From positions 374,550-438,549 of the forward strand of contig NZ_FOVM01000002.1 in assembly GCF_900115155.1 (NCBI RefSeq): a stretch of 64,000 nucleotides of DNA. The letters run 5' to 3'. The notes under the pieces were generated by a model that made no database searches, was not told the origin of the DNA, and saw only the letters and a program-made list of their open reading frames with translations. Positions 26-59,883 of this stretch are shown piece by piece. Both the position numbers and the translations under genes were made by a program. How positions within the stretch are numbered: the stretch's first letter is position 1; each line of letters begins with the position of its first letter. This DNA is from Mycetocola miduiensis (GTDB taxonomy: Bacteria > Actinomycetota > Actinomycetes > Actinomycetales > Microbacteriaceae).

Positions 26-39
26 TGGACCTTCGTCCG
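26..39. promoter_or_regulatory. DosR-box-like palindrome (TGGACCTTCGTCCG)
   Basis: The 14-mer fits the island consensus with its outer bases changed. No gene start lies at the usual distance to the right. It may serve a gene to the left of the window or be an orphan left by a deletion. Confidence 0.45.
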
Positions 40-354
40 TAGTCCATAGGCGTTCCGGGCGGAAGGCGGCACCGGGTGCAACAGCTATTGCAGACGGAAT
101 GGCAGCTGGGAACGGCCGGACGGCCCTCGTAGCGGTCTCCCCGCGTGCGTTCCAGGCCGGCGGCGTCGCCGTCGCTGAAGTTGTCCGAGACGCTCATGTG
201 TCGGGGCCTTTTTGGGTCCCTTTTGACAAGCGAACAACGGCAAATATCCACATCAAATGATGAGTGCTCATCCGACGCGATCGCCCTTGCGGCCGTATGA
301 TTACTGGTATCCACAACTAAAGACGGCGCGGACCCGCACTTCAGCGTCTGTCAG

Positions 355-388
355 GGGGTCAGGGGTTCGAATCCCCTCAGATCCACCA
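355..388 (+). other. tRNA-like 3' end remnant (possible attachment-site scar)
   Basis: A 5-bp T-stem with the TTCGAAT loop (361-377) is followed by CAGATCC, a discriminator A and an encoded CCA (378-388). No matching 5' acceptor strand (GGATCTG or a G-U variant) occurs within about 100 bases upstream, so this is not a complete tRNA. A tmRNA 3' end is also possible, but no tmRNA 5' part or tag reading frame was seen. Such isolated 3' ends are typical of att sites left by elements that integrate into tRNA or tmRNA genes. Confidence 0.45.
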
Positions 389-638
389 AAACCTCTGGTG
401 AGCGATAAGTTCTCAGGGGTTCTTTTCTTTCGGAAAGCGCCTCCGGGGCCTTATTGGGGCCTTAATGATTTTCATCGAAGGTTCCGGGGACCACTCCCGA
501 GGTCGCTCAGTCGGCCGAAAGTGCTGCGAACGGCGGTCGTGCCCACCTGGTGGTATTCGAGCGGTCGCTCCATCTGCTCATTGGTCCGTGCGACGAGTAG
601 AGGAGAAAGACCCTTTCACGGAATTCTGAGCCCATTGA

Positions 639-652
639 GGGACTTTCGCCCT
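639..652 (+). promoter_or_regulatory. DosR-box-like site, promoter of CPBP gene
   Basis: GGGACTTTCGCCCT. A TAGCTT hexamer at 676-681 starts 24 bp past the end of the box, and the GTG start at 688 lies 7 bp after that hexamer, which implies a leaderless transcript. No Shine-Dalgarno sequence precedes the GTG. Confidence 0.75.
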
Positions 653-687
653 TGTCGCCGCACCGCATGCGCTCGTAGCTTCAGACG

Positions 688-1407
688 GTGCGGTCGCAAT
701 CTACTGACAACGTAACCTCTCCATGGACTCCACCGCCCCCGCCGCAGCCTAGATGGGGCGGGTCATCTCTCTGGACTGCGATCGCCGCCATAGAGGTTGC
801 GCTCGCTATCACGACAGTGATTCTGGACCTGTTCATCCCAGCGCTGGTCCTGCTCGTACTTGGTGCGTTCTCGTTAGCGCTTCGGCGACAGAGCCTCAAG
901 ACGCTCGGAGTGTGCCGCCCGCCTGCAGGCGCCTCCAGAATGATCATCCACGTCGCCCTGCTGACGCTTGGCTGGAACATCCTCACCTTCCTCCTGTTCC
1001 TTCCGTTGCTGGAGCTCGCAACCGGTACCGAACAGGATGTGAGCGGGTTCGCCCCGATACAGGGCGACTTCCGTCTGTTGCTCCTCATGCTTGCGCTGTC
1101 ATGGACTCTCGCAGCCGTGGGTGAGGAGTTCGCGTTCCGCGGCTATGTTCAGACGCGAATGCGCGAGCTGCTCCCGGGGCGTTGGGGGCTCGCCACAGCG
1201 ATCATATTTTCGTCGTTGCTGTTCGGGCTGGTACACACAGAACAGGGAATTGTCGGAGTGATCGTCACGACCGTCGATGGTGTTTTCTTCAGCCTCCTGC
1301 GCTACCAGTTTCGAACGCTGTGGGCAGCCGTAACGTCGCACGGCGTTAGCAACACGATGGGGCTTATCGTCTTTTTTCTGTTCGGCCCGGTGCAAGCTCC
1401 CTGGTGA
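688..1407 (+). CDS. CPBP (CAAX-like) family intramembrane metalloprotease
   Basis: A 239-residue multi-pass membrane protein. The CPBP signature is complete: EE-x3-R at residues 146-151 (EEFAFR), then an F-x3-H segment (FGLVH), and near the C-terminus H-x3-N (HGVSN). These residues bind metal and catalyse in Rce1-type proteases, whose bacterial members cleave or modify membrane substrates of unknown identity. The start is the GTG placed 35 bases after a DosR-like box, without a ribosome-binding site. A damaged copy lies at 16692-17371 and a more distant CPBP gene at 43412-44329. The substrate cannot be inferred. Confidence 0.85.
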   Translation: MRSQSTDNVTSPWTPPPPPQPRWGGSSLWTAIAAIEVALAITTVILDLFIPALVLLVLGAFSLALRRQSLKTLGVCRPPAGASRMIIHVALLTLGWNILTFLLFLPLLELATGTEQDVSGFAPIQGDFRLLLLMLALSWTLAAVGEEFAFRGYVQTRMRELLPGRWGLATAIIFSSLLFGLVHTEQGIVGVIVTTVDGVFFSLLRYQFRTLWAAVTSHGVSNTMGLIVFFLFGPVQAPW

Positions 1408-1599
1408 GCAGTCGTGCTCAGGCGGGCACCATCAAACCTCGAGTTCGCCGGGTGATCATGTGCCCCGTCACCCGGAGCGCTCATGGACTTTACCTGCAAC
1501 AGGTTGTTGGAGCCGTCGACACGCAGAGAGAGGAATCGCTGGGGAATTGTTGGCTATCGCCAACCGTACTTGTGAAGCGTATGCGGAGCAGCGCGCGCC

Positions 1600-2129
1600 T
1601 CACGGAGTCGGATTGTCCGTTCGCACATCAAGTCCGAGCGTCGAGAGCACCTTCGTCGCCCAAGTCTCGGCGCGTTGGAGTTCCCCTTCCAGAAGGGGAC
1701 CTTCATACCCATGCACGCAAAAGGTTTCCTGCTTCACCGACGTTTCGAATCCGAGGGACCGCAGTTCATGCCTCGCCGCTTTTGCGGCTGAGCCAGGGAG
1801 GCGCGGCTTGTCGACTCGAGTATCGAACGCGACGGCCGGAACCTCTGATTCAACCCTGTCGAGTGCGTTAAGCCACCCCGGATGCCCCTCGTTGGTGCGT
1901 GCGGTGCAGAGTGAGATTTGACGGCTTCGGCGCGCGTCGCGGGCCGTGTCATCGAGAACGCCTGCGTGGGTCCACCAACGACGACAAGACCGTAGCCGCT
2001 GGCCGATCCGGGCGCAGAATCGGAGTCCATGACGTCCACGGTGCCGACGGGGGTTAGAACCTTTCCAACGACCCGAGCGACTTTTTCCGTATTGCCCCAC
2101 AGGGACTCATAAACCACAAGTGCTTGCAC
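1600..2129 (-). pseudogene. Flavodoxin-like protein, frameshifted
   Basis: The N-terminal half is a flavodoxin FMN-binding start (MQALVVYESLWGNTEKVA, with the phosphate loop S-x-W-G-N-T-E) and continues to about base 1920. The rest (RTNEGHPGWL, then FETSVK and YEGPLLEGE to the stop at 1600) lies in another frame. Together they would make a protein of about 175 residues, typical for this single-domain flavodoxin family. One frameshift near 1915-1920 separates the halves. It is not a close copy of the flavodoxin at 40693-41247. A weak palindrome at 2174-2187 is the only box candidate upstream. Confidence 0.75.
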
Positions 2130-2198
2130 TGTTGCTCCTCAGATTGAGCGACCCGCGAGGGTCCCGGTTATGGAGGACAACGGCCTCCGATGGTGCGC

Positions 2199-2504
2199 TT
2201 AGGTCTCTTGCCTATGCCCAAGCTGTTCTGGCTCACCGGTCGAGGCACGGATAGAGGCTTCGCTGCGTTCCGCACGGCGGCGGGCCCCGCTCACACCGAA
2301 AAGGTAAATGGCGTCGAGGACCCCTAGCGTGTTCGAGATGAGCAGTGTGACGAACCAAGACCTGCTGTCATCTTTTGCCGCGCGCCAGAGCGAGGCGCCC
2401 TTCCACGCGAGCGTCCATGCCACAAGGGCGACGAGAACCGAGCGGCCAACTGTGCCACGCGTGTCCACTAGATGAGTGGAGCTACTAACCTGATAAATCT
2501 TCAT
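2199..2504 (-). CDS. Small membrane protein resembling the DUF5652 family
   Basis: 101 residues from the ATG at 2504; the longer open frame upstream has no protein-like character. Two hydrophobic segments lie at about residues 20-36 and 48-68, with the pattern WKGASLWRAA followed by WFVTLLISNTLGVLDAIYLF, which I recognise from short DUF5652-like proteins. The C-terminal 25 residues are polar and Arg/Glu-rich. No strong ribosome-binding site is visible. It is divergent from the membrane-protein gene at 2737, and the box at 2658-2671 lies between them, so it could share that regulation. Function unknown. Confidence 0.65.
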   Translation of the reverse strand: MKIYQVSSSTHLVDTRGTVGRSVLVALVAWTLAWKGASLWRAAKDDSRSWFVTLLISNTLGVLDAIYLFGVSGARRRAERSEASIRASTGEPEQLGHRQET

Positions 2505-2657: not shown

Positions 2658-2671
2658 GGGACTTTCGCCCT
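2658..2671 (+). promoter_or_regulatory. DosR-box-like site upstream of membrane protein gene
   Basis: GGGACTTTCGCCCT, identical to the site at 639. A TTCACTG sequence follows at 2694-2700; the paralogous gene at 59958 has the same sequence at nearly the same place after its box. The next start codon is at 2737. Confidence 0.7.
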
Positions 2672-2736: not shown

Positions 2737-3276
2737 ATGCACGGCTCGCAATTTCGGGCGGTGATCTATTGGACGCTCCTCGTGGTCACCATCTTCAACG
2801 TCGTGTCCGCGATCGGTGGCGGGGTCGCCATGCTCGTCACAAACGGGCTCGGGATGCCCGTCGCCAGCCTCGCAGGAAGCCCGTTTGATTCCTTTGTGTG
2901 GCCGGGAGTAATCCTGATCGTGGTGGTTGGGGGAACGCAAGCTCTCGCGGCGGTACTGCTTCTGTTGAGGCGCGAGTCGGCCTTGCTTTGGTCAGCTGTG
3001 GCTGCACTGGGAATGCTGATTTGGATCTTTACTGAAACTGGTTTGATCCGGGGATGGTCGTGGTTGCAGGTTGTCTACTTCGCCACCGGAACGGCGCAAC
3101 TCGTGTGTGTTCTTGCTTTGCTCGGTGTTGCTGCCTGGCTCCCGCGGGAGCCGCTGAGGGAACCGGTGACAAGCGCCTTTCAGGTGACACCGCGCACGGT
3201 CACCGGCATCCGGTCCCGCTCTGCCCGGCGCGCCTCGCAGCCGCGCGCGGAGCAGGTACAAGCGAGGTCGTCATAA
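2737..3276 (+). CDS. Four-helix membrane protein, island family (copy 1)
   Basis: 179 residues from the ATG at 2737, which has a GGGAAGGG-type ribosome-binding site; the in-frame ATG at 2704 has none. Four hydrophobic segments are seen at about residues 10-35, 48-72, 80-100 and 105-130. Conserved features are NGLGMP, VVGGTQALA, the FTETGLIRGWSWLQVVYFATGT stretch around helix 4, and a basic tail of about 45 residues. Close relatives are at 32926-33393 (disrupted) and 59958-60425. All three follow a DosR-like box. Function unknown; the repeated linkage to ADH and USP genes suggests a stress membrane role. Confidence 0.8.
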   Translation: MHGSQFRAVIYWTLLVVTIFNVVSAIGGGVAMLVTNGLGMPVASLAGSPFDSFVWPGVILIVVVGGTQALAAVLLLLRRESALLWSAVAALGMLIWIFTETGLIRGWSWLQVVYFATGTAQLVCVLALLGVAAWLPREPLREPVTSAFQVTPRTVTGIRSRSARRASQPRAEQVQARSS

Positions 3277-3290
3277 TGGTCCCGGGACGT

Positions 3291-10871: not shown

Positions 10872-11111
10872 CTACGAGCTGGTGATCCGGTCTGAGGCAC
10901 GATCAGTGTCGGCTGCTGGCCGTTTCGTGAACAGGTCTCGTGCGACGGCGCCTGCGACCAGTCCGATACCCGCGCCGATCGCAGCACCAAGCGCGATGCC
11001 CGGGGCACCGGCGATCGCGACGCCGATGGTGAGGCCGGCTCCCGCGCCGAGCGCTATTCCCAAACCGGGAAGGGCCGGATAGAGCGACGAGTTCGTTCCT
11101 GAGTGTGTCAT
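10872..11111 (-). CDS. Small glycine-rich membrane protein
   Basis: 79 residues. Two glycine/alanine-rich hydrophobic segments (LGIALGAGAGLTIGVAIAG and GIALGAAIGAGIGLVAGAVA) are joined by a short turn, followed by a charged tail. The repeated GxxxG pattern suggests tight helix packing in the membrane. The ATG at 11111 has no ribosome-binding site but lies 35 bases from a box, with a TAGCGT hexamer 7 bp upstream of it: a leaderless start. Function unknown. Confidence 0.65.
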   Translation of the reverse strand: MTHSGTNSSLYPALPGLGIALGAGAGLTIGVAIAGAPGIALGAAIGAGIGLVAGAVARDLFTKRPAADTDRASDRITSS

Positions 11112-11146: not shown

Positions 11147-11160
11147 GTGACTTAGGTCAC
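11147..11160 (-). promoter_or_regulatory. DosR-box-like site, leaderless promoter
   Basis: GTGACTTAGGTCAC is a perfect palindrome with GTGAC/GTCAC arms. The TAGCGT hexamer lies at 11118-11123 and the ATG at 11111 follows after exactly 35 bases. Confidence 0.7.
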
Positions 11161-13100: not shown

Positions 13101-13225
13101 GTCAGGATCTTCCGAACTGCGGTCAGGTTCCGTTCGAGTCCGGCGGCCTTATCGACGACGTGCGTGGCGTCCCTTCAGGGACAAGGGGTGGCCTACCTGA
13201 GCGCCCGGCTCCTAGACTCGCTGAC

Positions 13226-15914: not shown

Positions 15915-15928
15915 GGGACCTTAGGCCC
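15915..15928 (+). promoter_or_regulatory. DosR-box-like site upstream of BON gene
   Basis: GGGACCTTAGGCCC. A CACAAT hexamer at 15952-15957 begins 24 bp past the box, predicting a leader of about 29 bases before the ATG at 15993. Confidence 0.75.
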
Positions 15929-17847: not shown

Positions 17848-17956
17848 GACCTGCTACTCCTTTGGCTCTGTGCGATCCATGATTCTCACCCCGCGGTGTG
17901 TGGTGGAGGGGCTTTGGTCCCGGTTACTGAACCGCCCGTGGGGTCATTTCGATGGC

Positions 17957-17970
17957 GGGACGTTCGGCCC
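17957..17970 (+). promoter_or_regulatory. DosR-box-like site upstream of multicopper oxidase pseudogene
   Basis: GGGACGTTCGGCCC. A GACGAT hexamer at 17992-17997 points rightward, toward the oxidase remnant starting near 18072. Confidence 0.6.
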
Positions 17971-18071
17971 TTTTTCTGCCAGCATGCACAGGACGATCCT
18001 GAGGAGGTGGGCCTTTCTGTGATTGTGGGCCGGAGAAACCGCCGCGGAACTACGTGACAAGGCAGATAACC

Positions 18072-19595: not shown

Positions 19596-19609
19596 GGGCC
19601 GAAGGTCAC
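19596..19609 (-). promoter_or_regulatory. DosR-box-like site, leaderless promoter of USP
   Basis: On the minus strand GTGACCTTCGGCCC. The hexamer CACCGT is at 19567-19572, and 35 bases separate the box from the ATG. Confidence 0.75.
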
Positions 19610-19664: not shown

Positions 19665-19678
19665 GGGACCTTCGGCCC
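19665..19678 (+). promoter_or_regulatory. DosR-box-like site, leaderless promoter of GyrI-like gene
   Basis: GGGACCTTCGGCCC. The hexamer GAGCAT is at 19702-19707, and 35 bases separate the box from the ATG at 19714. Confidence 0.75.
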
Positions 19679-20262: not shown

Positions 20263-20276
20263 ATGACCAAAGTCCC
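20263..20276 (+). promoter_or_regulatory. DosR-box-like site upstream of SDR gene
   Basis: ATGACCAAAGTCCC (minus strand GGGACTTTGGTCAT). The hexamer AACGAT is at 20300-20305, predicting a leader of about 38 bases. Confidence 0.65.

Positions 20277-25278: not shown

Positions 25279-25282
<4 letters not shown>
24281..25282 (-). CDS. 2-oxo acid dehydrogenase E1 alpha subunit (pyruvate/acetoin type)
   Basis: 333 residues. The thiamine-diphosphate site is visible as [19 protein letters not shown] and FCCENN (about residues 150-182). Other features are [18 protein letters not shown] and [10 protein letters not shown], the phosphorylation-loop region of alpha subunits. The start overlaps the acyl-CoA synthetase stop by four bases. 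It is second in a five-gene operon with four overlapping junctions, which implies a fixed stoichiometry of the products. Confidence 0.92.
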
Positions 25283-27081
<1,799 letters not shown>

Positions 27082-27116: not shown

Positions 27117-27130
27117 GGGACCTTCGTCCT
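27117..27130 (-). promoter_or_regulatory. DosR-box-like site, leaderless promoter of acs-E1-E2-ACP operon
   Basis: Plus-strand GGGACCTTCGTCCT. The hexamer TAGCCT is at 27088-27093, and 35 bases separate the box from the ATG at 27081. Confidence 0.8.
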
Positions 27131-27411: not shown

Positions 27412-27736
27412 GATCTTTCTCCTGGTTCGAAGCTCGTGTTGAATCCGTCCGACTAGTCGGCTCGCTTTATAGAGTCCGAGCGCCTGAGGTCCGCGGTCAG
27501 GGCCGAAAGTCCCGATCTCGGGAATACGGCGCGAATCGCCGCAGCGAAGGGAACGAGCAAAGATCAGCGCGCCTGTACTGAAGCGCGGCGGGCGCAGGGT
27601 CGAGCTGAAGCAGGGCCAGTCGGGCATCCAGCACTTCGCGTCCGCATTTTCCAAATCGCAGCGCGAAGCCCGCTAGCTTTGCGTCGACATGATCGCTCTC
27701 TGAACTCGGTAGCCCCTGCGTGGTGCATGCCGCCGG
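27412..27736. other. Intergenic region carrying one box
   Basis: It holds the leader and promoter of the 63-residue gene. From about 27520 to 27736 no gene or clear structure was seen. Confidence 0.5.
27500..27513 (-). promoter_or_regulatory. DosR-box-like site upstream of small gene
   Basis: Plus-strand GGGCCGAAAGTCCC (minus GGGACTTTCGGCCC). The hexamer GACTCT at 27471-27476 is identical to that of the USP promoter at 28181-28186. Confidence 0.7.
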
Positions 27737-28209: not shown

Positions 28210-28223
28210 GGGCCAAAAGTCCT
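28210..28223 (-). promoter_or_regulatory. DosR-box-like site, leaderless promoter of USP
   Basis: Plus-strand GGGCCAAAAGTCCT. The hexamer GACTCT is at 28181-28186, and 35 bases separate the box from the ATG. Confidence 0.75.
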
Positions 28224-30269: not shown

Positions 30270-30283
30270 GTGTCCAAAGTCCC
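30270..30283 (-). promoter_or_regulatory. DosR-box-like site upstream of PRTase-esterase operon
   Basis: Plus-strand GTGTCCAAAGTCCC. The hexamer CATCAT is at 30241-30246, at the usual spacing. Confidence 0.65.
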
Positions 30284-30328: not shown

Positions 30329-30342
30329 GTGACTAAAGGCCC
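30329..30342 (+). promoter_or_regulatory. DosR-box-like site, near-leaderless promoter of VOC gene
   Basis: GTGACTAAAGGCCC. The hexamer TACCGT is at 30366-30371. The ATG at 30379 follows the box after 36 bases; the GTG at 30370 would overlap the hexamer. Confidence 0.7.
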
Positions 30343-31450: not shown

Positions 31451-31477
31451 GCTAGTAGGACCAATGGCCCTACTAGC
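31451..31477 (+). promoter_or_regulatory. DosR-box-like site inside an extended 27-bp palindrome, Hsp20 promoter
   Basis: The core AGGACCAATGGCCC is at 31457-31470. The flanks GCTAGTAGG and CCTACTAGC form perfect 9-bp inverted arms. A GACACT hexamer at 31494-31499 is at the usual spacing, giving a leader of about 60 bases before the Hsp20 ATG. Confidence 0.75.
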
Positions 31478-32717: not shown

Positions 32718-32792
32718 GACCATTACTCCAAACCCGGCTAAATGTCACTTAGCGGCCAGTCGCCCGCGAACGTGAGCAACCGACAACCAAAG

Positions 32793-32833: not shown

Positions 32834-32847
32834 GGGACTTTCGCCCC
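32834..32847 (+). promoter_or_regulatory. DosR-box-like site upstream of disrupted membrane gene
   Basis: GGGACTTTCGCCCC. No clear nAnnnT hexamer at 24-25 bp; TCAACTGG at 32872 aligns with the TTCACTG of the paralogous promoters. Confidence 0.65.
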
Positions 32848-34453: not shown

Positions 34454-34873
34454 GCCCGTCCCCGGATTGCTGCGACGATTCCCAACGTCGCGCTTCTTGA
34501 CATGCGTCTTCCCGATGGCGACGGGATCGATCTGTGCCGCGACGTCAGGTCAAAGAACCCAGAAGTCTTGTGCATCATCCTGACGGCACACGACGATGAC
34601 GAGGCTGTGTACGTCGCGGTCATGGCCGGAGCATCTGGATACGTTCTGAAAGATATGCGGTCTGGAGCTCTCGTCGATGCTGTCCGTGCCGTCGCGAACG
34701 GGCATCAACTCTTGGATCCCACTCTTTCGCGAATGGCTGTGAAGCGAATTGCTACCAGCCAACCGAGCGCCAGCGCCATCGACACTCTCAACACTCGGGA
34801 GAGAGAAATCCTTGAACTGATCGCTGAGGGCATGACGAATCGGCAGATAGGCGAAACTCTCGCCCTCGCGGAG
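34454..34873 (+). pseudogene. DosR/DevR-like response regulator, truncated at both ends
   Basis: The frame gives RPRIAATIPNVALLDMRLPDGDGIDLCRDV, CIILTAHDDDEAV and GASGYVLKDMRSG, which align with mycobacterial DosR around its phospho-acceptor Asp (VLDVRLPDGNGIELCRDL), Thr and Lys. The output helix-turn-helix begins (LNTREREILELIAEGMTNRQIG) but stops before the recognition helix at LALAE. The first 45 or so residues of the receiver are also gone. It is embedded in a 375-codon open frame that runs on into a USP fragment, so the frame is a chance fusion of remnants. It cannot bind DNA in the normal way. Confidence 0.85.
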
Positions 34874-34957
34874 TCACTCGCCGTGTTCTCTTCGCCGTCC
34901 GTGCTCATCGCAGTCGGAACACGTCACTCGACGGGGCGCAGGCCCCGACGGAATTGG

Positions 34958-35458
34958 TCGGTTGGGGCGCGGGTCGCCGGTGCCGCTGAGGGTCCCGTAA
35001 CAATCATCCCGCATCCGCTCGTTGGGGACGGCAATTCGATCGTCGTCGGTGTGGACGATCCGGAGGAATCCGCATCGCTCTTCGCGGCAGAAGAGGCTGC
35101 GCGGACCGGCGCTACCCTTCGTCCCGTTCGCGCATGGGAAGGGCCACCGCTTTGGCCGGGGCGGACGGAACACGACCCGGCTTACCTGGAGTCTCTTGCC
35201 GAGATGTACCGGAACCTGGTCACTGACGCAATGGAAAGCATCCTGATGCGTTACCCCAATCTCATGGTCAACCCGGTGGTCGAGCGCGGCATACCCGCCG
35301 ACGTGCTTTTGGAAGCGCCGAAGGGAGCCTGGACGCTCGTTGTCGGGAATCGTGGCTTTCACGGTCTCAAACGATTCTTCCTGGGCTCAGTCAGTCAGAC
35401 GGTCGTGCTCCAGGCAGCTGTGCCGACGGTCGTCGTCAACGCAAGCTCAGCACGGTGA
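34958..35458 (+). pseudogene. Universal stress protein (tandem type), C-terminal domain fragment
   Basis: SVGARVAGAAEGPVTIIPHPL is the end of a first USP domain, and GNSIVVGVDDPEESASLFAAEE to the stop at 35458 is a complete second domain with VVGNRGFHGLKRFFLGSVSQT. The first domain is missing. It lies in the same frame as the response-regulator fragment but has no start of its own. Confidence 0.8.
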
Positions 35459-35568: not shown

Positions 35569-35582
35569 AGGACCAAAGGCCC
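35569..35582 (+). promoter_or_regulatory. DosR-box-like site upstream of BON gene (copy 2)
   Basis: AGGACCAAAGGCCC. The hexamer AAGGAT is at 35606-35611, giving a leader of about 36 bases. Confidence 0.7.
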
Positions 35583-36786: not shown

Positions 36787-37268
36787 CGCCCTGACCCGTC
36801 CTGATCGCCCTACGATCCACATTGATCCACACCGGATCACGTCAGTGCGCGAAGCGGACGGACGAAGCCGACGACGTCCAGCAATTGGGATTTCCATGAC
36901 TATCGCAGCGCCTTGAGGAATCGAATGCGTATTCATCGTCCGCGACGGGACCTCGGTCGCCACTGCCGAACCTCCGGCCGACACGCCGCGGTCGCTTTCA
37001 GAGCATATGCGCTGACCAGCCACTGGGCGAGCCAGCCAACGCAGGCAAGAGCCAGCAGGATTCCTGCGAGGCGCAGCCCGATCCTAGGCGTGACCGGCCG
37101 TAGCCGCCGCAGAAACGCGGGACATGAAACACAGCCTGTCGGAACGACTCCCGCACCGGCAGGACGTAGGACCCTGTGGGCACTTTCTTCGCCGGCCTAT
37201 CCTCCGATGTGGCGACGTATCGATGACGCGCTCAGTGAAATCCACCGACGCCCGATTTGGAGTTAGAC
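36787..37268. other. Gene-poor stretch
   Basis: No gene with homology was found. A minus-strand frame around 36940-37130 reads RIGLRLAGILLALACVGWLAQWLV, a plausible single membrane helix, but has no convincing start and may be a remnant. A box-like 14-mer at 36947-36960 (GGGACCTCGGTCGC) has one mismatch in the second arm and no gene behind it. Confidence 0.4.
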
Positions 37269-40442: not shown

Positions 40443-40512
40443 CGCAATCCTGAGTCGCTGCATCAAGCCATCTGCCATGCCCAGCATGGGCATTGACGGG
40501 GCCTGGCAGCTA

Positions 40513-40605: not shown

Positions 40606-40619
40606 AGGACCTTTGTCAC
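40606..40619 (+). promoter_or_regulatory. DosR-box-like site upstream of flavodoxin gene
   Basis: AGGACCTTTGTCAC. The hexamer TACGAT is at 40644-40649, 25 bp past the box. Confidence 0.7.
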
Positions 40620-43075: not shown

Positions 43076-43411
43076 GGATTCCGTCAATTCCTCTCGACCC
43101 AATAGATGAAGTGTGGTTCAGTAATCCTGCCCAGTTCGGCGGGTTCCTGGGACTCGTCTGTGCGAACGCTGGGGCAGCCGCCATTGGAAGAAGCGCACGC
43201 TTCATCATTCAGGACCAAAGTCACTGTCCGCTCGTTACTGCAGTGGGACGATGAGTAGGACGGTCGGTCGAATCTGACGCAGTCCAGGCGAGCCGAGGTG
43301 GATGACCCCACAGGTGCTCGGGCATCACGTGGCCGGTGGGCGTCGCGGGTGCACCAGTTCTGACGGTGGGGTTGAGCGGTCCCCGGCCCTTGGAACGGAG
43401 ACGAGGGCGGG
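43076..43411. other. Intergenic region with TerC remnant and one box
   Basis: Bases 43111-43147 (VWFSNPAQFGGF) match the sequence preceding and starting the TerC fragment at 33618-33660, so a TerC gene once followed the wHTH gene here too. A box lies at 43211-43224. The rest holds nothing recognised. Confidence 0.5.
43211..43224 (+). promoter_or_regulatory. DosR-box-like site, probably for CPBP gene
   Basis: AGGACCAAAGTCAC. The hexamer GACGAT is at 43247-43252. The next gene starts at 43412, so the leader would be about 150 bases, longer than elsewhere. Confidence 0.5.
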
Positions 43412-45426: not shown

Positions 45427-45440
45427 GGGACCTAGGACCC
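45427..45440 (+). promoter_or_regulatory. DosR-box-like site, leaderless promoter of PEP synthase regulator
   Basis: GGGACCTAGGACCC. The hexamer GAGACT is at 45464-45469, and 35 bases separate the box from the ATG at 45476. Confidence 0.8.
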
Positions 45441-45475: not shown

Positions 45476-46339
45476 ATGACCGCTGCATTCACCGACACCG
45501 CGTCAGCACGCGCGGGGATGCCGGGACGGACCGCTTTCGTCGTGTCGGACAGCACGGGCGTCACCGGTGAGACGATCGCCGAGGCGCTGCTGTCGAGCTT
45601 TCCGGCATTCAGCTTCGACCGTCGCACCATCCCATTCGTGGATAACGAAGCGACGGCGCGGGAGGTAGCCGCCGAGATCGACCGCGTCGCGGCGAAAGGT
45701 CTGCGGCCGATCCTGTTCCTCACCGTCGCCGATGCCGAGCTGCGCCAGATTCTCGGCGGTTCCCAGGCGATCATCATCGACCTTCTAGGTGCGCCCCTCA
45801 ACGCACTGGAAGCGGAATTGGCGACGACACCGTCCACATCATCCCGAGCGGGGCACAAAGACAACGAGCGCCGCCGCGTGAGGAAACGGATGCGCGCGGT
45901 CGAATACGCCATCGAGCATGACGACGGACAAGGCGCCACGGCACTGGAGGTGGCTGAGCTCATCATCGTCGCTCCGTCCAGGTGCGGAAAGACCGAGACC
46001 GCGATGTATCTCGCCATCCAGTTCGGACTCCTCGTGGCGAACGTCCCGCTCACCGACGATTCACTGCACGAAGGTGAAGGACTTCCTGCGACCGTCATAC
46101 CGCACGTTCGACGATGCTTCGGACTGACGAGCACCCCACTTCGGCTCCATCAGGTGCGAAGCGAACGGTGGCCGAACTCTGCCTATGCCAGCCTGCAGCA
46201 GTGCACACGGGAATTGAGGGGGGCCGAGAAGGTGTATCGCCGCCACGGCATCCCGTTCCTGAACTCGGCGATGTCGAGTGTAGAGGAAACGTCCGCAGCC
46301 ATTGTCCAGGCGATGGAACTCCGGACCGAAGATCCCTGA
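45476..46339 (+). CDS. PEP synthase regulatory protein (bifunctional kinase/pyrophosphorylase, DUF299)
   Basis: 287 residues. N-terminal FVVSDSTGVTGETIAEALL, the nucleotide loop APSRCGKTETAMYLA (about residues 166-180) and the C-terminal YASLQQCTRELRGAEKVYRRHGIPFLNSAMSSVEETSAAI all fit the PPSR/PDRP family. These enzymes phosphorylate PEP synthase (or PPDK) at a Thr using ADP and remove the phosphate with Pi. It lies 12 bp upstream of ppsA. The leaderless start means synthase and its switch are both under the box. Confidence 0.92.
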   Translation: MTAAFTDTASARAGMPGRTAFVVSDSTGVTGETIAEALLSSFPAFSFDRRTIPFVDNEATAREVAAEIDRVAAKGLRPILFLTVADAELRQILGGSQAIIIDLLGAPLNALEAELATTPSTSSRAGHKDNERRRVRKRMRAVEYAIEHDDGQGATALEVAELIIVAPSRCGKTETAMYLAIQFGLLVANVPLTDDSLHEGEGLPATVIPHVRRCFGLTSTPLRLHQVRSERWPNSAYASLQQCTRELRGAEKVYRRHGIPFLNSAMSSVEETSAAIVQAMELRTEDP

Positions 46340-48818: not shown

Positions 48819-48832
48819 GGGACCTTCGACCC
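48819..48832 (+). promoter_or_regulatory. DosR-box-like site upstream of BON gene (copy 3)
   Basis: GGGACCTTCGACCC. The hexamer CACACT is at 48856-48861, and the ATG is at 48896. Confidence 0.75.
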
Positions 48833-48895: not shown

Positions 48896-49585
48896 ATGAC
48901 TGCCTCGAAGCGGCAGGTCACGCACGACGACATGGCGATCCAGAAGGACGACAAGACGATCCAACGGGCCGTCGAGGAAGAACTCGACTGGACCCCCGAC
49001 GTGAACGCGACTCATATCGGCGTTTCGGTCGACGGCGGCCGCGTGACGCTTTCCGGCGCCGTAGACAGCATCGCGGAACGAACCGCCGCTACGAAAGCTG
49101 CGTACAGGGTGGATGGTGTCACCGGCGTCGAAGACGACATCGCCGTTCGCCGCGACCCCGCCTCCAACGCTGACATCGACATCCAGCACTCCGTCGACCG
49201 CATCCTCGAATGGACCAGTGGTGTCCCCAGCACGGTCACGGCCAAGGTGCACGATCGCAAGGTCGTGCTCACCGGCCAGGCCGATTGGAACTACCAGCGC
49301 GTCGCGGCGGCCAAGGCAGCCGGACGCGTGCTCGGCGTGGTCTCCGTCGACAATCAGGTCACCCTTCAGCGTCGGCCGTCCGCCGGCGACACCGCTGAGC
49401 GCATCAAGAACGCCTTCGTCTGGAACGCCACACTCGACGCCAACACCATCACGGTGACGGTCTCAGGCAACACGGTGACGCTGACTGGATCGGTGCACTC
49501 GTGGGCCGAGAAGAAGCAGGCGGTTCTCACCGCCTGGTCGTCGCCGAACGTGGCGGAGGTCATCGACGACATCATCGTCCTCTGA
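48896..49585 (+). CDS. Triple BON-domain protein (copy 3)
   Basis: 229 residues with GAAGGGACCAGAG upstream. Three BON units (GRVTLSGAVDS, RKVVLTGQADW, NTVTLTGSVHS) at about residues 22-88, 95-157 and 160-226. About 75% identical to copy 1, with the same spacing between box and start. The ADH gene follows after 28 bp and may be co-transcribed. Confidence 0.9.
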   Translation: MTASKRQVTHDDMAIQKDDKTIQRAVEEELDWTPDVNATHIGVSVDGGRVTLSGAVDSIAERTAATKAAYRVDGVTGVEDDIAVRRDPASNADIDIQHSVDRILEWTSGVPSTVTAKVHDRKVVLTGQADWNYQRVAAAKAAGRVLGVVSVDNQVTLQRRPSAGDTAERIKNAFVWNATLDANTITVTVSGNTVTLTGSVHSWAEKKQAVLTAWSSPNVAEVIDDIIVL

Positions 49586-50672: not shown

Positions 50673-50732
50673 CACGCGGCGCGGTGTGTTGTGGTTTCGA
50701 ACCTGGCCGGGGCCGATCGTCGGAGACCTGAC

Positions 50733-53935: not shown

Positions 53936-56557
53936 CTATGTGCGCTTGTCCCGCCTCAGCGACTTGTGTAGAGCGTCCACGAAGAGAATGGCCAACCCGC
54001 CCGCCAGCACGAAGATCCAGCCGATCCACGACGGCCAAGTGCCACCCAACAACTCGGCAAGCACAGGGATCCCCAGAAAACACACCACGAGAGCGAGGTC
54101 CACCCCGACGGCGAACACCAGCGCGCGATTGGCGAACACGGGATGGGACCATGCAGGAAGCGTTTCGCTCCGGCACGCGAAAGCATTGGCGACTTGAGCC
54201 GAAGCGATCGTGGCGAAGACCGTTCCTGAGGCCATGGCTAGCAGGTCTGGCTGAGCTGATTCTCCCCACCGCCAGCCTCCGAGCAGGAGGACCGTCGTGA
54301 AACCCGTAAGGGAGACGGCAGCCTCAACCGGTCCGAGAACGCCGAACGCGCGGACGAGGAGCGGCCTGGTGATCAAGGGGTGCGAGCGGTCCTTCCCCTG
54401 CATGACTCGACGGCTCGGAGGTTCGACTCCCAAGGCCAACGCCGGGAGCATATCCGTGCCGATGTCCAGAGCAAGCACCTGCAGCACGCTGATCGCGAGG
54501 GGGAAGTTGCCACCGCTCAGCGCCCAGACGGCGAACGGCGCCAGTTCAGCAACGTTGTCCGTCAGGTGATAGGTGAGGAACCGTCTGGCGTTGGCAAACG
54601 TTGCTCGCCCGAGGCGAATGGCCGAAATGATCGTCGCAAAATGGTCGTCGAGGAGCACGAGGTCGGCTGCTTCGCGTGCAACATCGCTCCCGCTCGCACC
54701 CATCGCCACCCCGACGTCGGCCTCCCTCAGAGCCGGAGCGTCGTTCACCCCGTCTCCCGTCATAGCGACGACGTGTCCTCGCTGTTTGAGAATCCGTGCG
54801 ATCCTCAGCTTGTCTGCCGGAGCCACGCGCGCAACAACGGCGCCTTCCTCGTGGTCGAGGATGGCACCCAATTCCCGGTCGTCTCGGGGCAGGTCAGGTC
54901 CGAGCACAGGTCCCCCAGGAAGAAGCAGACCGACTTCCCGGGCGATCGCCCGAGCAGTATCGGGATGGTCTCCCGTCACCATGACCACTCGGATGCCGGC
55001 TTGGCGGCACGACTGGATCGCTCGGTGAACATCCGGCCGAGGTGGATCCTCCAGCCCCAGGAGTCCCAGAAGTTCGAGCCCGGTTTCGATTTCCTGTGCT
55101 GAGGTCCCAACAGTCAGTGCCCGACCGGCAACGGCCAGCACACGCAGACCGCGAGCCGCCATGGCATTCACCGCCTGGGTGCACTCGGGAGTCGTGTTCG
55201 TGCATTGCTGAAAGACTCTCTCCGGTGCACCGATCACGCTGACACGGTCGCGGCGAATCGCGGAGCTCATCATTCGGTCTGCCGTATATGGGAACCGGCT
55301 CTCTGGTTGAATTGCGTCGATGTCGATTCCGCTGCGCATGGCGAGGCACACGATCGCTGCCTCGAGCGGGTCGCCCTCGGCCACCCATTGCCCGTCACGA
55401 GAAATGGGGCGCCCCACCACGCATTGCGCAGCGGTTGACGAGATGCCGGGCAGGAGCGCCAGGGCAGCGGGTCTGCCTCCTGACTGGGCCACCGGTTCGT
55501 ATCCTTCACCCGTGACGGTGACGGCCCCGTGGAAGGTCCACACTTCGACCACAGACATCCGGTTCTGGGTAAGGGTCCCCGTCTTGTCTGTGCAGATGAT
55601 CGTTGTTGCTCCGAGAGTCTCCACAGCGTCGAGTCGCCGGACAAGTGCGTTCTGGTCCGCCATGAGCTGGGCGCCGCGGGCGAGTGCGAGAGTGACGGTC
55701 GGCAGGAGACCTTCCGGTACGAGGGCGACCGCCACACCGACCCCAAACAGAAATGCTTCGGTGGGTTGAAGTCCCAGAACGATCCCGGTGAGACCGAGGC
55801 CGACGCCAGCCAGTACGGCGATGGTGGCCACCGTCCGGACAACACGGTCCAGTTCACGAGCCAGGGGACTCGGTGGCCTCGTGGCGGCCTGCGCGAGTTC
55901 TGAGATCGCCGCCAGCGTCGTGTGTGAACCGGTGGCTGTGACAAGCGCTTCCGCGTGGCCCTCGACGACGAAGGTGCCGGCCGACAGCGGATCTCCTGCC
56001 GCACGGGCGACGGCGTCGCTCTCACCGGTCATCATCGATTCGTCGACTGCGAACGCAGTGGACTCTTCGACCCTCATGTCCGCTCCGATGCGATCACCCG
56101 AGCTGAGCATCACCCGGTCGCCGCGGACCAGGTCGGCTGCGTCGATGGTCACCAACGAGCCGTCTCGCCGAACCCTCGTGACGGTCGGAAGCAGAGCATG
56201 AAGTCGCTCCGCTGCCCTGTCGGCGCGGTATTCCTGCCAGAAAGCGAAGAGAGCGTTGAGGACGATCACGACGACGATAGCCACGCCAAGTGCTGGTGTT
56301 CCGCTGAGCAGGGCGAGCCCGGCGGCTGCCCACAGGAGTATCGCCAGCAAGTGCGTGAACTGGCGCATCAACGCAGCCACAGGTGACCGACGCGCCGCCG
56401 GAGGCGGCACGTTCGGACCGTCCTGGTTCAGCCTGACCTGTGCTTCGCCCGATGTCAGCCCGGCTGGCGAGCTCGTCTTTTCAGGCTCGCGGGCCATCGC
56501 GCTGTACACGCTTCCACATTGGCATCCAGTCGACTCGTCCCGTCTCGCGTCCGCCAT
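53936..56557 (-). CDS. Cation-transporting P-type ATPase, type II
   Basis: 873 residues from ATG 56557 with GAAGGGCGCCC upstream. N-terminal cation-ATPase domain, MTGESDAV in the actuator, helix 4 motif LVPEGLLPTVTLALA, phosphorylation site ICTDKTGTLTQN at about residue 323, VTGDHPDTARAI, TGDGVNDAPAL and a C-terminal helix block with DIGTDMLPALALG. The PEGLLPT form occurs in Na/K- and Ca-type P2 pumps. The ion is not decidable. A short Cys pair near the start (TGCQCGS) is unusual. A box lies at 73 bp. Confidence 0.9.
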   Translation of the reverse strand: MADARRDESTGCQCGSVYSAMAREPEKTSSPAGLTSGEAQVRLNQDGPNVPPPAARRSPVAALMRQFTHLLAILLWAAAGLALLSGTPALGVAIVVVIVLNALFAFWQEYRADRAAERLHALLPTVTRVRRDGSLVTIDAADLVRGDRVMLSSGDRIGADMRVEESTAFAVDESMMTGESDAVARAAGDPLSAGTFVVEGHAEALVTATGSHTTLAAISELAQAATRPPSPLARELDRVVRTVATIAVLAGVGLGLTGIVLGLQPTEAFLFGVGVAVALVPEGLLPTVTLALARGAQLMADQNALVRRLDAVETLGATTIICTDKTGTLTQNRMSVVEVWTFHGAVTVTGEGYEPVAQSGGRPAALALLPGISSTAAQCVVGRPISRDGQWVAEGDPLEAAIVCLAMRSGIDIDAIQPESRFPYTADRMMSSAIRRDRVSVIGAPERVFQQCTNTTPECTQAVNAMAARGLRVLAVAGRALTVGTSAQEIETGLELLGLLGLEDPPRPDVHRAIQSCRQAGIRVVMVTGDHPDTARAIAREVGLLLPGGPVLGPDLPRDDRELGAILDHEEGAVVARVAPADKLRIARILKQRGHVVAMTGDGVNDAPALREADVGVAMGASGSDVAREAADLVLLDDHFATIISAIRLGRATFANARRFLTYHLTDNVAELAPFAVWALSGGNFPLAISVLQVLALDIGTDMLPALALGVEPPSRRVMQGKDRSHPLITRPLLVRAFGVLGPVEAAVSLTGFTTVLLLGGWRWGESAQPDLLAMASGTVFATIASAQVANAFACRSETLPAWSHPVFANRALVFAVGVDLALVVCFLGIPVLAELLGGTWPSWIGWIFVLAGGLAILFVDALHKSLRRDKRT

Positions 56558-56629
56558 GGGCGCCCTTCACATGAGTCTGACTGCGGACCGGATCGCTCGA
56601 CCAGGGTCGAACGTCCTGAGGAACGCGGC

Positions 56630-56696: not shown

Positions 56697-59075
56697 TCAC
56701 CGTCCGAATCGCCGATGCACCCACTCAAGGGTCAGGCTCGCGCCGGCGGAAGTGCCGATCGCGGCGACCAGAAGATCGTTCGGGGGCATGTCCAACTCCA
56801 GGAAGTCCACGATCAGGGGAACCGACAAGACCACTATCAGACCGAGGTATGACGCCCCGACGATCGCGGCGGTGATGGGAGTGAACGGTCGAGCGAGAAC
56901 GGTCAGAACCCACAGGGCAGAGAGCGTCAGCGTGATGACCGCTGATGTCTGCACCTCCGCGCGGGGCGCTGCAGCGACGATAGTGGCATAGGCGACCACG
57001 AGGGCGACCGCGACCGCCACGACAAGGCCGGAGGGGACGCAAAACCGAAGGGCTCTCCGCAGAAACCCGGGACGGTAAAGGCGATCGTTCGGCAGAAGGG
57101 CGAGAACCAGAGCGGGAAGGCCGATCGTCAGACCGTCGACCACCGAGAGCTGGCGTGGCAGGAAGGGGTATGGCAAGAGGAGCGCTCCGCAGGCCACCCC
57201 GAGAAGGACTGCGTACGTCGTCTTGGTGAGGAAGAGTTTTGACAGTCGTTCGACGTTGGCGATCACCCGACGGCCTTCGCCGAGGATCCCGGGCAGCCTG
57301 GCGAAGGCACCGTCGAGCAGCACGACGTCAGCTACCGCCCGAGCCGCCGACGAACCAGAGCCCATGGCGATGCCGAGGTCCGCGTGCTTCAGCGCGAGCG
57401 CGTCGTTTACACCGTCTCCCGTCATTGCCACGGTGTAGCCGAGTGATTGGAAGCCCAGCACAAGCGCCTTCTTCTGCTCCGGCGTGACCCGACCGAAGAC
57501 CCGGTCTGTACGGAGAATGCTTGTGAGTTCGGCCGGGTCTCGGGGGAGGAGTCGCGCGTCGACGCCGGTGAAGCTGCCGGGGATTCCGGCCTCCCGTGCT
57601 ACCGCGGCCACAGTCAGTGGGTGGTCGCCAGAGATCACACACACTTCCACGCCTTGCCTGCCGAAGTAGCGGATCGTTTCGGCCGCGTCCCCACGGATCT
57701 GCTCGCGGAGCACCACCAGCGCAACCGGCTCCAACGCCGCCGGCAGAGCGGGTGCTTCTCCGTCCTCCGCCAGCTGGATGCGAACGTCTGAATGAGCGAG
57801 AACCAGTGTGCGGAGGCCGGTATCCGCCATTGAGCCGGCGCGGTTCAGCAGTGTCGGCGAGCTACCAGACGACGCGCCAAGCACGATGTCCGCGCCCCCG
57901 AGGACCCACGACCCTGGCATTCGGCCATCAACGAAATAGGCAGCGCTCCATTTGTGGCGGCTCGAGAACGGGATGGTGGCGTCTGGCAGCACAGCTTCGA
58001 CGCTGTCGGGCGGAAACGCTCGCCCGATCGCCTGCGCCGTGGCGTTGGCCACCGGATCAGCCGCGAACCAGGCCAGCGCGAGCTTCCAGCCCTTCGGTGG
58101 TCGGTCCACGGGTTCCACGCGGTCGAGAGCGAGTGACCCTTCCGTCAGTGTGCCCGTCTTGTCCACGCACAGCATGTTGACCCGCGCGAGACCTTCGACT
58201 GAGGCGATCTCATGGACGAGTACCCGGCGTCGGGAGAGCTTCACCGCCCCGACCGCCAGCGCCACGGATGTCATGAAGACGAGCCCCTGGGGCACCATCG
58301 CGATGAGCCCCCCGACAGCCCCGATCACCGCATCCCGCCAGGCGCCATTCGAGAGCGCCGTTGCCCAACCGCCGGCTGCCTGCATTTGACCGTTCAGGAG
58401 GATGCAACCGACAGGGAGCAGCCCGATCGAAATCCAGCGGATGACGCGCCAGATCGACTCCCGCAATTCACTGCGGACCGGTGAGAAGGTCCGGGCTTCT
58501 GCGGTGATGCGTGCCGCGTACGAGTCGGCACCGACACGAACGACCCGTGCGAGCCCGCTCCCGGAAAGCACGGTTGACCCGCTCAACAACTCTCTGCCAA
58601 GATCTGCACTCACCGGGTCCGCTTCGCCATTCAATAGGGATTCGTCGACTTCGATGTCCCGACCGGCGACCACCTCGGCATCCGCGGTCACTTGCTCGCC
58701 GGGACGCAACTCCAGCAGGTCGTCGAGCACCACGTCCGCCACGGAGCATTCGACACGACGGCCGTCGCGCAGCACCAGGGCCCGTGGCGCGTTGAGCACC
58801 GCGAGATGGGCCAGCGTTCGCTTGGCCCGGTATTCCTGCACGACGCCGATCAGAGTGTTGGCGACGAGGAACAACCCGAACAAAGCGTCCTGCCACGCTC
58901 CGAGCGTGAACAGAAGCGCGGAGCATCCGCCTACGACGGCATTGAACAGCGTAAGAACGTTGACGCGAACAATGTTCAGGAGCGACCGGCCCGTGTCATC
59001 CGGCTGGGTGTTGCCGAGCCCGTGGTCCCGGCGCTCCTGAACCTCCGCGGTGCTGAGCCCGGTCGGGGTTGTCAC
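56697..59075 (-). CDS. P-type ATPase, CtpE-like (HAD-IC family)
   Basis: 792 residues from GTG 59075, whose first bases overlap the stop of a 25-codon upstream frame (GTGA); ATG 59081, two codons earlier, is the alternative. Features: VDESLLNGEADPV in place of TGES, helix 4 motif MVPQGLV in place of PEGL, LCVDKTGTLTEG at about residue 303, ISGDHP, TGDGVNDALAL (the usual Pro-Ala is Leu-Ala) and a C-terminal block of helices. This matches the CtpE class, a calcium-type importer in Mycobacterium. Two boxes lie upstream. Confidence 0.88.
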   Translation of the reverse strand: MTTPTGLSTAEVQERRDHGLGNTQPDDTGRSLLNIVRVNVLTLFNAVVGGCSALLFTLGAWQDALFGLFLVANTLIGVVQEYRAKRTLAHLAVLNAPRALVLRDGRRVECSVADVVLDDLLELRPGEQVTADAEVVAGRDIEVDESLLNGEADPVSADLGRELLSGSTVLSGSGLARVVRVGADSYAARITAEARTFSPVRSELRESIWRVIRWISIGLLPVGCILLNGQMQAAGGWATALSNGAWRDAVIGAVGGLIAMVPQGLVFMTSVALAVGAVKLSRRRVLVHEIASVEGLARVNMLCVDKTGTLTEGSLALDRVEPVDRPPKGWKLALAWFAADPVANATAQAIGRAFPPDSVEAVLPDATIPFSSRHKWSAAYFVDGRMPGSWVLGGADIVLGASSGSSPTLLNRAGSMADTGLRTLVLAHSDVRIQLAEDGEAPALPAALEPVALVVLREQIRGDAAETIRYFGRQGVEVCVISGDHPLTVAAVAREAGIPGSFTGVDARLLPRDPAELTSILRTDRVFGRVTPEQKKALVLGFQSLGYTVAMTGDGVNDALALKHADLGIAMGSGSSAARAVADVVLLDGAFARLPGILGEGRRVIANVERLSKLFLTKTTYAVLLGVACGALLLPYPFLPRQLSVVDGLTIGLPALVLALLPNDRLYRPGFLRRALRFCVPSGLVVAVAVALVVAYATIVAAAPRAEVQTSAVITLTLSALWVLTVLARPFTPITAAIVGASYLGLIVVLSVPLIVDFLELDMPPNDLLVAAIGTSAGASLTLEWVHRRFGR

Positions 59076-59149
59076 GCCCATCCCGGTGCGACTCCGCCGG
59101 TTCGGAGGAACGACTGGAATGATTGCTCGAGGAGTGTTGAACCCTCCAT
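59072..59149 (-). CDS. Upstream open reading frame (25 codons) coupled to ATPase
   Basis: ATG 59149, preceded by AAGGACCGGCGC, encodes 25 residues (starting MEGSTLLEQS) and ends with TGA at 59072-59074, overlapping the ATPase GTG at 59073-59075. The distance from the box at 59207 to this ATG (58 bp) fits the island's leadered genes, whereas the ATPase start would be 126 bp or more away. It may be a leader peptide that drives translation of the ATPase by coupling. Confidence 0.45.
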   Translation of the reverse strand: MEGSTLLEQSFQSFLRTGGVAPGWA

Positions 59150-59206
59150 GCGCCGGTCCTTCCTTCGTACCGATTCATCGTCGTTCATGACCGGCATCCG
59201 TTTGAA

Positions 59207-59220
59207 GGGGCTTTCGTCCC
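59207..59220 (-). promoter_or_regulatory. DosR-box-like site, proximal of a tandem pair (CtpE-like ATPase)
   Basis: Plus-strand GGGGCTTTCGTCCC. The hexamer GACGAT on the minus strand is at 59177-59182, 25 bp from the box. Confidence 0.65.
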
Positions 59221-59240
59221 TCGTGACGTTGCACGGACGA

Positions 59241-59254
59241 AGGACCGTGGACCC
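59241..59254 (-). promoter_or_regulatory. DosR-box-like site, distal of a tandem pair
   Basis: AGGACCGTGGACCC, 34 bp centre to centre from the proximal box. Paired boxes are also known in mycobacterial DosR promoters. Confidence 0.6.
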
Positions 59255-59328
59255 TCGGCACAGGCACCGCGCTCGCTAAAGACCCAGAGCGTGACGGTCC
59301 GACTCCCTGACGCGGTGTTCGACGGTCG

Positions 59329-59809
59329 TCACCCTTGACTGTCTGTGCGGGAATTCCTCGGCGTCGCTGGCGGAGCCGGCGCTGCACGTGGGCGGTGGAC
59401 GACCAGAACGGGACAGCTCGCGTGTTCCGCGCAAGCGGCGCTCACCGAGCCGAGCAGCACGCCGGCCAGCCCGCCATGACCTCTGCTGCCCAGGACGAGC
59501 ATCCTTGCTCAGCTCGATGAGCGTTTTCGCAGCCGGTCCAGGAGCTGTCGTGGTCGACAGGTATTGCGGAGGTGCGCCGTCGAACGCGTGGGTGATCGCT
59601 TCCGTCAGGATCGTTCTGGCCTCCTCCTCCGGCGACGGGAGGGGGATCGGTCGGTAATCTCCGATCACCGGGTATTCCCACGTCATCACAGCCTCCAGTC
59701 GCACACCGAGCGCCTCCGCAATCTCGGCAGCTTCCCGAAGGGCGTCGACGGATGATTCCGACCCGTCGACTCCGACTACGACGTGACGTTTGCTGGTGCT
59801 GTCGGTCAT
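59329..59809 (-). pseudogene. Universal stress protein, frameshifted copy (copy 3)
   Basis: From ATG 59809 it follows the other single-domain USPs (VVVGVDGSESSVDALREAAEIAEALG) to LIELSKDAR. At about 59508 eight bases are missing compared with the copies, so the ATP-binding loop (MLVLGSRGHGGLAGVLLGS) and the C-terminus lie in another frame, ending at 59329. The frame read from the start instead yields an unrelated Arg-rich tail. The missing bases would form a near-repeat (GATGCTCG), suggesting slippage. The promoter is still perfect. Confidence 0.8.
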
Positions 59810-59844
59810 GTCTCCACGCTGGATGACGCTGGACAGAATTAGTA

Positions 59845-59858
59845 GGGCCGAAAGTCAC
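59845..59858 (-). promoter_or_regulatory. DosR-box-like site, leaderless promoter of USP copy 3
   Basis: Plus-strand GGGCCGAAAGTCAC. The hexamer CAGCGT is at 59816-59821, and 35 bases separate the box from the ATG. Divergent from the next box, 25 bp centre to centre. Confidence 0.75.
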
Positions 59859-59869
59859 ACTGAAGACTC

Positions 59870-59883
59870 GGGACTTTCGCCCT
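59870..59883 (+). promoter_or_regulatory. DosR-box-like site upstream of membrane protein-ADH operon
   Basis: GGGACTTTCGCCCT, identical to the sites at 639 and 2658. TTCACTG at 59906-59912 repeats the sequence of the paralogous promoter at 2694. Confidence 0.75.

Follow-up and report, generated by a model that had tools for sequence, protein, structure and literature searches.

Predicted DosS-DosR boxes clustered on a putative tRNA-Ala genomic island of Mycetocola miduiensis

A 14-bp palindrome recurs across a 64-kb stretch of the Mycetocola miduiensis genome (the window; C7:374550-438549, contig NZ_FOVM01000002.1, in a genome of 3.30 Mb in 15 contigs), which an original prediction had attributed to a DosR-type regulon of a probable member of the Microbacteriaceae. 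That placement was borne out by a "same family" locus that, over 3630 nt, shows no difference from a record named Microbacteriaceae. Pfam confirmed the gene families predicted behind the palindromes (USP, Hsp20, PRTase plus esterase, PfkB, HAD-GH65, P-type ATPases, and WS/DGAT) and the cluster also encodes a PDH-type complex with acetate--CoA ligase, a PEP-synthase type enzyme and its regulator, flavodoxin, BON, and DUF305 proteins. Nine repeat families of at least 120 nt are present in the window, several from one HAD-GH65 duplication and others in BON, USP, and DUF305 genes. No Rfam match at gathering scores and no tRNA was found in the window. At its right edge lies a dosS-dosR pair, which the original prediction had not mentioned and which supports the DosR-type reading.

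Each of the 27 14-mers originally listed was found at its coordinate. Matches to GGGACYTTNGKCCC with at most two mismatches numbered 30 in the window against 6.7 expected (maximum in 100 shuffles, 13). A symmetric matrix built from 22 window seeds and used with a cut-off of 12 bits gave 28 sites in the window, an in-sample count, and 9 in C13:212-230 kb, a region outside the training set, compared with 1 in the background, nine stretches of the same genome totaling 180 kb; column-permuted matrices yielded a mean of 2.4 window sites (maximum 13). A matrix made from the nine C13 sites recovered 17 window sites of at least 12 bits, 15 of them listed originally, versus 2 in the background, a test that is not fully independent because these nine sites had been chosen with the window matrix. 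Shuffles, background loci, and the C13 cluster rule out chance or a G+C effect as the origin of the motif. Leave-one-out scoring supported 24 of the 27 sites (12.5-17.7 bits) but not those at 42131, 56630, and 59241, which scored 7.3-7.9 bits and were rejected as boxes; at 9 bits the C13 matrix misses these three and the sites at 639, 2658, and 59870. The matrix scan also revealed overlooked sites at 17908, 37161, 46034 (inside a gene), and 56604.

On C7, 28 of 29 sites were intergenic and 26 of 29 lay no more than 250 nt upstream of a gene start as called with a home-made codon model; the figures were 8 and 9 of nine sites on C13, 972 and 1288 of 5000 random positions, and 2 and 3 of 18 background sites at 9 bits. 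A genome-wide scan showed no overall excess (50 matches with at most two mismatches, 44 for the reversed control). Since the reversed pattern is almost as frequent, only the concentration of the motif counts: 22 of the 50 matches, and 9 of 11 with at most one mismatch, fall in two regions, C7:363-441 kb and C13:211-231 kb, that together make up about 3% of the genome. The regulon extends beyond the 64 kb of the original prediction onto contig C13.

The 5' part of dosS lies inside the window, with dosR following beyond it. Compared with solved structures, DosR matched DevR best (3c3w, E 8.7e-66, residues 5-214), followed by VraR (1.5e-44). Its recognition helix, EKTVKNYVS, is identical to that of DevR, and LLDMRLPDG in the receiver aligns with VLDVRLPDG. 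DosS comprises GAF domains, which match 2vzw and DevS entries with E values down to 2.5e-41, and HisKA_3 and HATPase_c domains. When positions were counted by hand, GAF-A retained the haem His and the distal Tyr, and is predicted to be of the haem type; the position of the DevS Glu is occupied by Gly, as in 2vzw. We take the DevS residues to be His149 (haem), Tyr171 (distal), and Glu87, and 2vzw to be DosT. Among the NCBIfam models listed (for DosR, the best 25 of 102), none exceeded its cut-off with either protein, DosR or DosS; MadR and MadS came closest but stayed below it. A site of 8.8 bits is found at 65530, at the end of dosR. A second, broken dosR copy (34502-35458) has Pfam matches to a partial Response_reg, to positions 2-31 of 57 of the GerE profile, and to Usp. 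Because it lacks the N terminus and part of the DNA-binding domain and continues into the USP part, it looks like a relic.

We compared the spacing behind the boxes, counted from the end of the 14-mer, with 80 DosR loci of other genomes (14 Microbacteriaceae and 66 other). Of the 76 oriented island flanks, 24 had a -10-like hexamer, xAxxxT, at nt 24-29, the mean per position being 2.8. The same was true of 53 of 330 flanks pooled over the 80 loci (mean 9.1), where flanks are not independent counts because the rows are related. Taken separately, the Microbacteriaceae loci had it at 24 in 26 of 88 flanks, and the 66 other loci at 24 in 27 of 240 and at 25 in 23. ATG peaked at 35 in the island (10/76 flanks, against a mean of 1.26); the 80 loci had peaks at both 35 and 36 (18/330 and 16/330, mean 4.4). 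Weak background sites (78 flanks) showed neither peak. Judged by sequence, the -10 register relative to the box is kept in the island and in the pooled loci. Further xAxxxT peaks at 46 and 47 were seen in the 66 loci outside Microbacteriaceae (among L034-L113; 22 and 17, mean 6.1); they perhaps come from tandem boxes with the second box 22 bp upstream.

Eleven island genes start 35-36 nt after a box. Nine have the -10 in exact register, and the other two, starting at 36, have it one base later. In a simple test, a Shine-Dalgarno sequence preceded none of the 11. Among the 37 box-gene pairs spaced by at least 45 nt it was present in 22, and among all 123 genes in 54; a single pair, at 25 nt, belongs to neither class. 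Placing the box at -49 to -36 and the hexamer at -12 to -7 puts +1 on the start codon, and the 11 genes therefore probably have leaderless mRNA. For one DosR site of M. tuberculosis, the mapped transcription start is 34 bp away on the downstream side, which is said to fit the canonical distance (PMC5360333), and proximal DosR boxes overlap the -35 (PMC3029386); in M. marinum, 5' leaders shorter than 4 nt are reported to be translated efficiently (PMC8022548). Alternatively, transcripts of this class have other start points, or translation really begins at codons farther downstream. We consider this unlikely: although the starts come from the home-made codon model, the ATG peak is independent of gene calling, and all 11 genes lack a Shine-Dalgarno sequence. 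When a 50-codon open reading frame was required, ATG still occurred eight times at 35 and three times at 36 in the island (mean 0.67), seven times at 35 in Microbacteriaceae loci (mean 0.95), and 9, 13, and 9 times at 35, 36, and 37 in the other loci (mean 2.08); 26 of the 80 loci have such an ATG at 35-36.

Of the 299 family genomes, 101 have DosR. GGGACYTTNGKCCC was present in 76 of the 101 DosR-positive genomes versus 20 of the 198 DosR-negative ones (p about 3e-30), and the reversed control showed no link (39/101 versus 87/198). Within the 80 DosR loci, each up to ~20 kb, GGGACNWWNGNCCC matched 97 times and the reversed pattern twice. In the genus, two of six genomes have a DosR match, M. 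miduiensis included, the other being 54% identical. In a DosR tree, the window DosR sits on a long branch; the clade around it consists of Microbacteriaceae rows and has a support of 92/93, short of the starred level. The DosR of sister genome G005 falls in a different clade, a pattern that is compatible with, though not proof of, transfer inside the family.

The box-rich segment is bordered on its left by an att-like direct repeat of the 3' end of tRNA-Ala(ggc) and downstream sequence (window 352-427; 76 nt, 94.7% identical to the tRNA-Ala at L009:8712-8787). There is a third copy in matching orientation at C13:211033-211111 (97.5% over 79 nt). Between window 352 and C13:211111 lie 37 of the 38 boxes of at least 12 bits on the C7 and C13 parts. 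In four of five sister genomes the tRNA-Ala is only 1.7-5.4 kb from the counterparts of C13:195-197 kb, the next shared gene; in the fifth, the contig ends inside an integrase gene, too early to compare. In M. miduiensis, C7 continues for 78 kb beyond the tRNA to its end and C13 adds 33 kb. Multi-copy repeats at the ends of both contigs would account for the break between them. The segment C13:197-211 kb is also absent at the sister sites, yet lies outside the third repeat; we read this arrangement as probable stacked insertions at one tRNA. We infer that the box cluster resides on an island integrated at tRNA-Ala(ggc) that was mobile in the past.

Beside the tRNA-Ala, L009:8961-13889 carries excisionase-like, integrase, IrrE-type, and Abi_2 genes, a separate small element whose excisionase-like and integrase genes are 97% and 94% identical in sister genome G003. 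Sister genome G005 has more partial copies of the tRNA-Ala 3' end (L153, 14565-15391), so this tRNA seems to be a hotspot of integration within the genus.

DosR relatives were also detected by tblastn (E up to 1e-40) on 35 plasmid records. Plasmid NZ_CP014514.1 of Frondihabitans sp. PAMC 28766, also of the Microbacteriaceae, was scanned over 140 of its 213 kb and has 14 + 6 boxes of at least 12 bits in 90.4 kb versus 1 in another 50 kb. It encodes a GAF kinase (46% identity) and a response regulator (61%), with USPs, BON, pyridoxamine oxidase, alcohol dehydrogenases, GH65, and beta-phosphoglucomutase near dosS-dosR. Unlike the island, this cluster is on a 213-kb circular plasmid typed as non-mobilizable, and its DosR belongs to another clade. 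Plasmid DNA close to window 38000-62000 was limited to short 70-74% matches in three Rhodococcus plasmids.

We conclude, with good though not full confidence, that the boxes are sites of a DosS-DosR pair of the DevS/DosT-DevR and OsdK-OsdR type and mark a putative hypoxia/nitric oxide (NO) regulon on a tRNA-Ala genomic island. At the level of predicted sites and genes a DosR-type regulon is well supported; binding, signal, and induction by hypoxia or NO are presumed. DosS, as a haem-type GAF kinase, would sense loss of O2, or NO/CO, and phosphorylate DosR. DosR~P would bind the palindrome centered at -42.5 and recruit RNA polymerase to the xAxxxT hexamer at -12 to -7 (class II activation); in the 11 genes the start codon would coincide with the predicted +1, giving leaderless mRNA. 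The USPs, Hsp20, PEP synthase and its regulator, PDH-type complex and acetate--CoA ligase, flavodoxin, and P-type ATPases, once induced, would move the cell into a non-growing survival metabolism.

Most of what is known about DosR regulons comes from mycobacteria, in which they are linked to persistence, and the USP, Hsp20, PfkB, PRTase, and WS/DGAT families found here belong to the DosR regulon of M. tuberculosis. The M. tuberculosis DosR/DevR system shares with the island a DevR-type regulator with the same recognition helix, a haem-type GAF kinase, and a box overlapping the -35, and the palindrome arms are as in mycobacteria, the stringent M. smegmatis form being reported as GGGACTTNNGNCCCT (PMC6448022). 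In contrast to M. tuberculosis, dosS here lies upstream of dosR and has no box before it, the boxes are packed in one ~100-kb stretch, Gly stands at the Glu87 position, and BON, DUF305, flavodoxin, and PEP-synthase genes follow boxes. The original prediction regarded a regulon of this size in one 64-kb cluster of a probable Microbacteriaceae as seemingly not well described. Outside mycobacteria, a DevR-type regulon is known from Streptomyces coelicolor, OsdK-OsdR (PMC5069765). For the Microbacteriaceae, a literature search found no paper on DosR, and among the matches listed by a looser search none mentions DosR or DevR. The OsdR report describes a DevR counterpart with USP genes near the two-component system, electrophoretic mobility shift assay binding, and a palindrome said to conform to that of M. 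tuberculosis; its consensus, AGGGCCGATCGGCCCT, differs, and its regulon is also linked to development (PMC5069765). Neither "island" nor "leaderless" appears in its main text (PMC5069765). Packaging of the regulon on a tRNA island and the probable leaderless class would be the new parts.

The boxes might instead be read by another NarL/LuxR-type regulator, with the neighboring DosRS controlling something else. The genome does contain eight further matches to the DosR piece (27-56% identity), and PolR of Microlunatus phosphovorus, whose DevS/DevR-like PolS-PolR is another such two-component system outside mycobacteria, is reported to recognize a direct repeat, GTTCACnnnnnGTTCaC, and to target poly-P and phosphate genes (PMC6754071). 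We judge this quite improbable in view of the DevR recognition helix in DosR, the co-occurrence of motif and DosR across the family, and the density of the motif around dosR in the 80 loci. That the 14-mer is a non-regulatory dispersed repeat copied with duplicated cassettes, as the repeat families of the window might suggest, is hardly credible, given that boxes with varying arms precede unrelated genes and that -10 and start codon follow at a fixed spacing, also pooled over the loci of other genomes.

Several observations weigh against assigning the boxes to DosS-DosR, or against parts of the island and promoter model. No box was detected between WS/DGAT and dosS even at 3 bits (window 62990-63300), so that autoregulation is not evident. 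The different PolR repeat means that kinship alone does not fix the motif (PMC6754071). In the family search, with E up to 1e-60 and at most 10 candidates scored per genome, 25 of the 101 DosR-positive genomes had no strict motif and 20 of the 198 DosR-negative ones carried it. GTG shows no peak at 35-36, and only 12 of the 37 pairs at 45 nt or more keep the exact -10 register, several pairs being the more distant one of two in a divergent arrangement. Not every box falls between the border repeats: the one on C7 at -1280 is to the left of the copy at window 352, and the one at C8:324146 is off the island. The C7-C13 join is our deduction, and other contigs could lie between. The integrase and excisionase-like gene are located between the tRNA and window 352, that is, left of the repeat, and no integrase was present among 63 segment proteins scanned with Pfam, which are part of the segment's genes. 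G+C is 63.9% in the island and 63.1% in the C13 part versus 63.1-68.0% in the background, so foreign origin is not evident.

An apparently whole low-oxygen program (sensor, switch, and ~40 sites) on a large island that four close relatives do not have at this place suggests that dormancy programs can move between bacteria as a unit. As a tentative extension, sensor, regulator, boxes, and effectors may pass from one member of the Microbacteriaceae to another as a single tRNA-Ala island or plasmid cassette, the fixed spacing making some of the mRNAs leaderless and hence still translatable when O2 loss slows ordinary initiation. The locus makes three questions testable: whether a whole hypoxia program can be acquired in a single event, how the start of transcription is set by the box, and why there would be leaderless mRNA for 11 genes over 38 boxes.

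Table 1. Candidate DosR boxes and other features in window coordinates. PL, probable leaderless type; new, missed in the original prediction; reg, -10 in register.
Feature	Position	Strand	Bits	Context
att-like direct repeat	352..427	+		tRNA-Ala(ggc) 3' end and downstream sequence; left border of box-rich segment
Box	639..652	+	14.5	164 nt before CPBP-type 817-1407; reg
Box	2658..2671	+	14.5	65 nt before 2737-3276
Box, PL	11147..11160	-	15.9	35 nt before ATG of 10872-11111; reg
Box	15915..15928	+	16.5	64 nt before BON-domain gene 15993-16664
Box, new	17908..17921	-	15.8	60 nt before 17455-17847
Box	17957..17970	+	15.4	52 nt before multicopper oxidase fragment 18023-18769
Box, PL	19596..19609	-	14.0	35 nt before ATG of USP 19120-19560
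Box, PL	19665..19678	+	15.5	35 nt before ATG of GyrI-like 19714-20172
Box	20263..20276	+	16.2	73 nt before SDR 20350-21132
Box, PL	27117..27130	-	16.8	35 nt before ATG of acetate--CoA ligase 25279-27081, first in PDH-type gene row
Box	27500..27513	-	16.4	no called start within 350 nt downstream
Box, PL	28210..28223	-	13.6	35 nt before ATG of USP 27737-28174
Box	30270..30283	-	14.3	53 nt before PRTase 29557-30216, then esterase 28256-29560
Box, PL	30329..30342	+	15.9	36 nt before ATG of glyoxalase-like 30379-30783
Box	31457..31470	+	12.7	96 nt before Hsp20 31567-31995
Box	32834..32847	.	15.6	between DUF305 32112-32723 and 32965-33393
Broken dosR copy continuing into USP part	34502..35458	+		83% to intact copy over 124 residues; DosR query residues 38-199 at 76%
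Box	35569..35582	+	15.4	71 nt before BON gene 35654-36319
Box, new	37161..37174	.	13.9	no called start within 350 nt
Box, top window score	40513..40526	.	18.0	12/14 positions palindromic; between 39612-40487 and flavodoxin 40693-41247
Box	40606..40619	+	13.5	73 nt before flavodoxin 40693-41247
Box	43211..43224	+	16.2	187 nt before CPBP-type 43412-44329, then PfkB 44480-45418
Box, PL	45427..45440	+	15.1	35 nt before ATG of kinase/pyrophosphorylase 45476-46339 (PEP-synthase regulator type), then PEP synthase/PPDK type 46352-48808
Motif within gene, doubtful	46034..46047	.	13.1	inside 45476-46339
Box	48819..48832	+	14.8	63 nt before BON gene 48896-49585
Box, new	56604..56617	-	13.6	106 nt before P-type ATPase 53936-56497
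Box	59207..59220	-	15.6	125 nt before P-type ATPase 56697-59081
Box, PL	59845..59858	-	14.9	35 nt before ATG of USP 59276-59809
Box	59870..59883	+	14.5	74 nt before 59958-60425
WS/DGAT (triacylglycerol/wax ester synthase family)	61713..63002	-		Pfam WS_DGAT_cat and WS_DGAT_C; no box in upstream scan
dosS	63194..64888	+		63194..64000 in window, rest beyond; L024:16363-18057
dosR	64881..65531			after dosS, beyond window; L024:18050-18700

The off-island site at C8:324146-324183 (L013:10001-10038) consists of a 16.4-bit box and a 9.9-bit site 94 nt before a called gene, and is likely a target outside the island. The box at window coordinate -1280 on C7 (L009:18720), left of the att-like repeat, lies upstream of an Asp23-type gene row; Asp23 genes are present on the Frondihabitans plasmid too. 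HAD-GH65 has a second, broken copy (window 13221-15854 versus 50728-53063, 71-79% DNA identity in register, 37.5 kb apart), of which separate HAD and GH65 pieces are left. The pieces at 18023-18769 and 18944-19102 seem to be the remains of a multicopper oxidase gene that follows a box, the first piece being assigned by Pfam.

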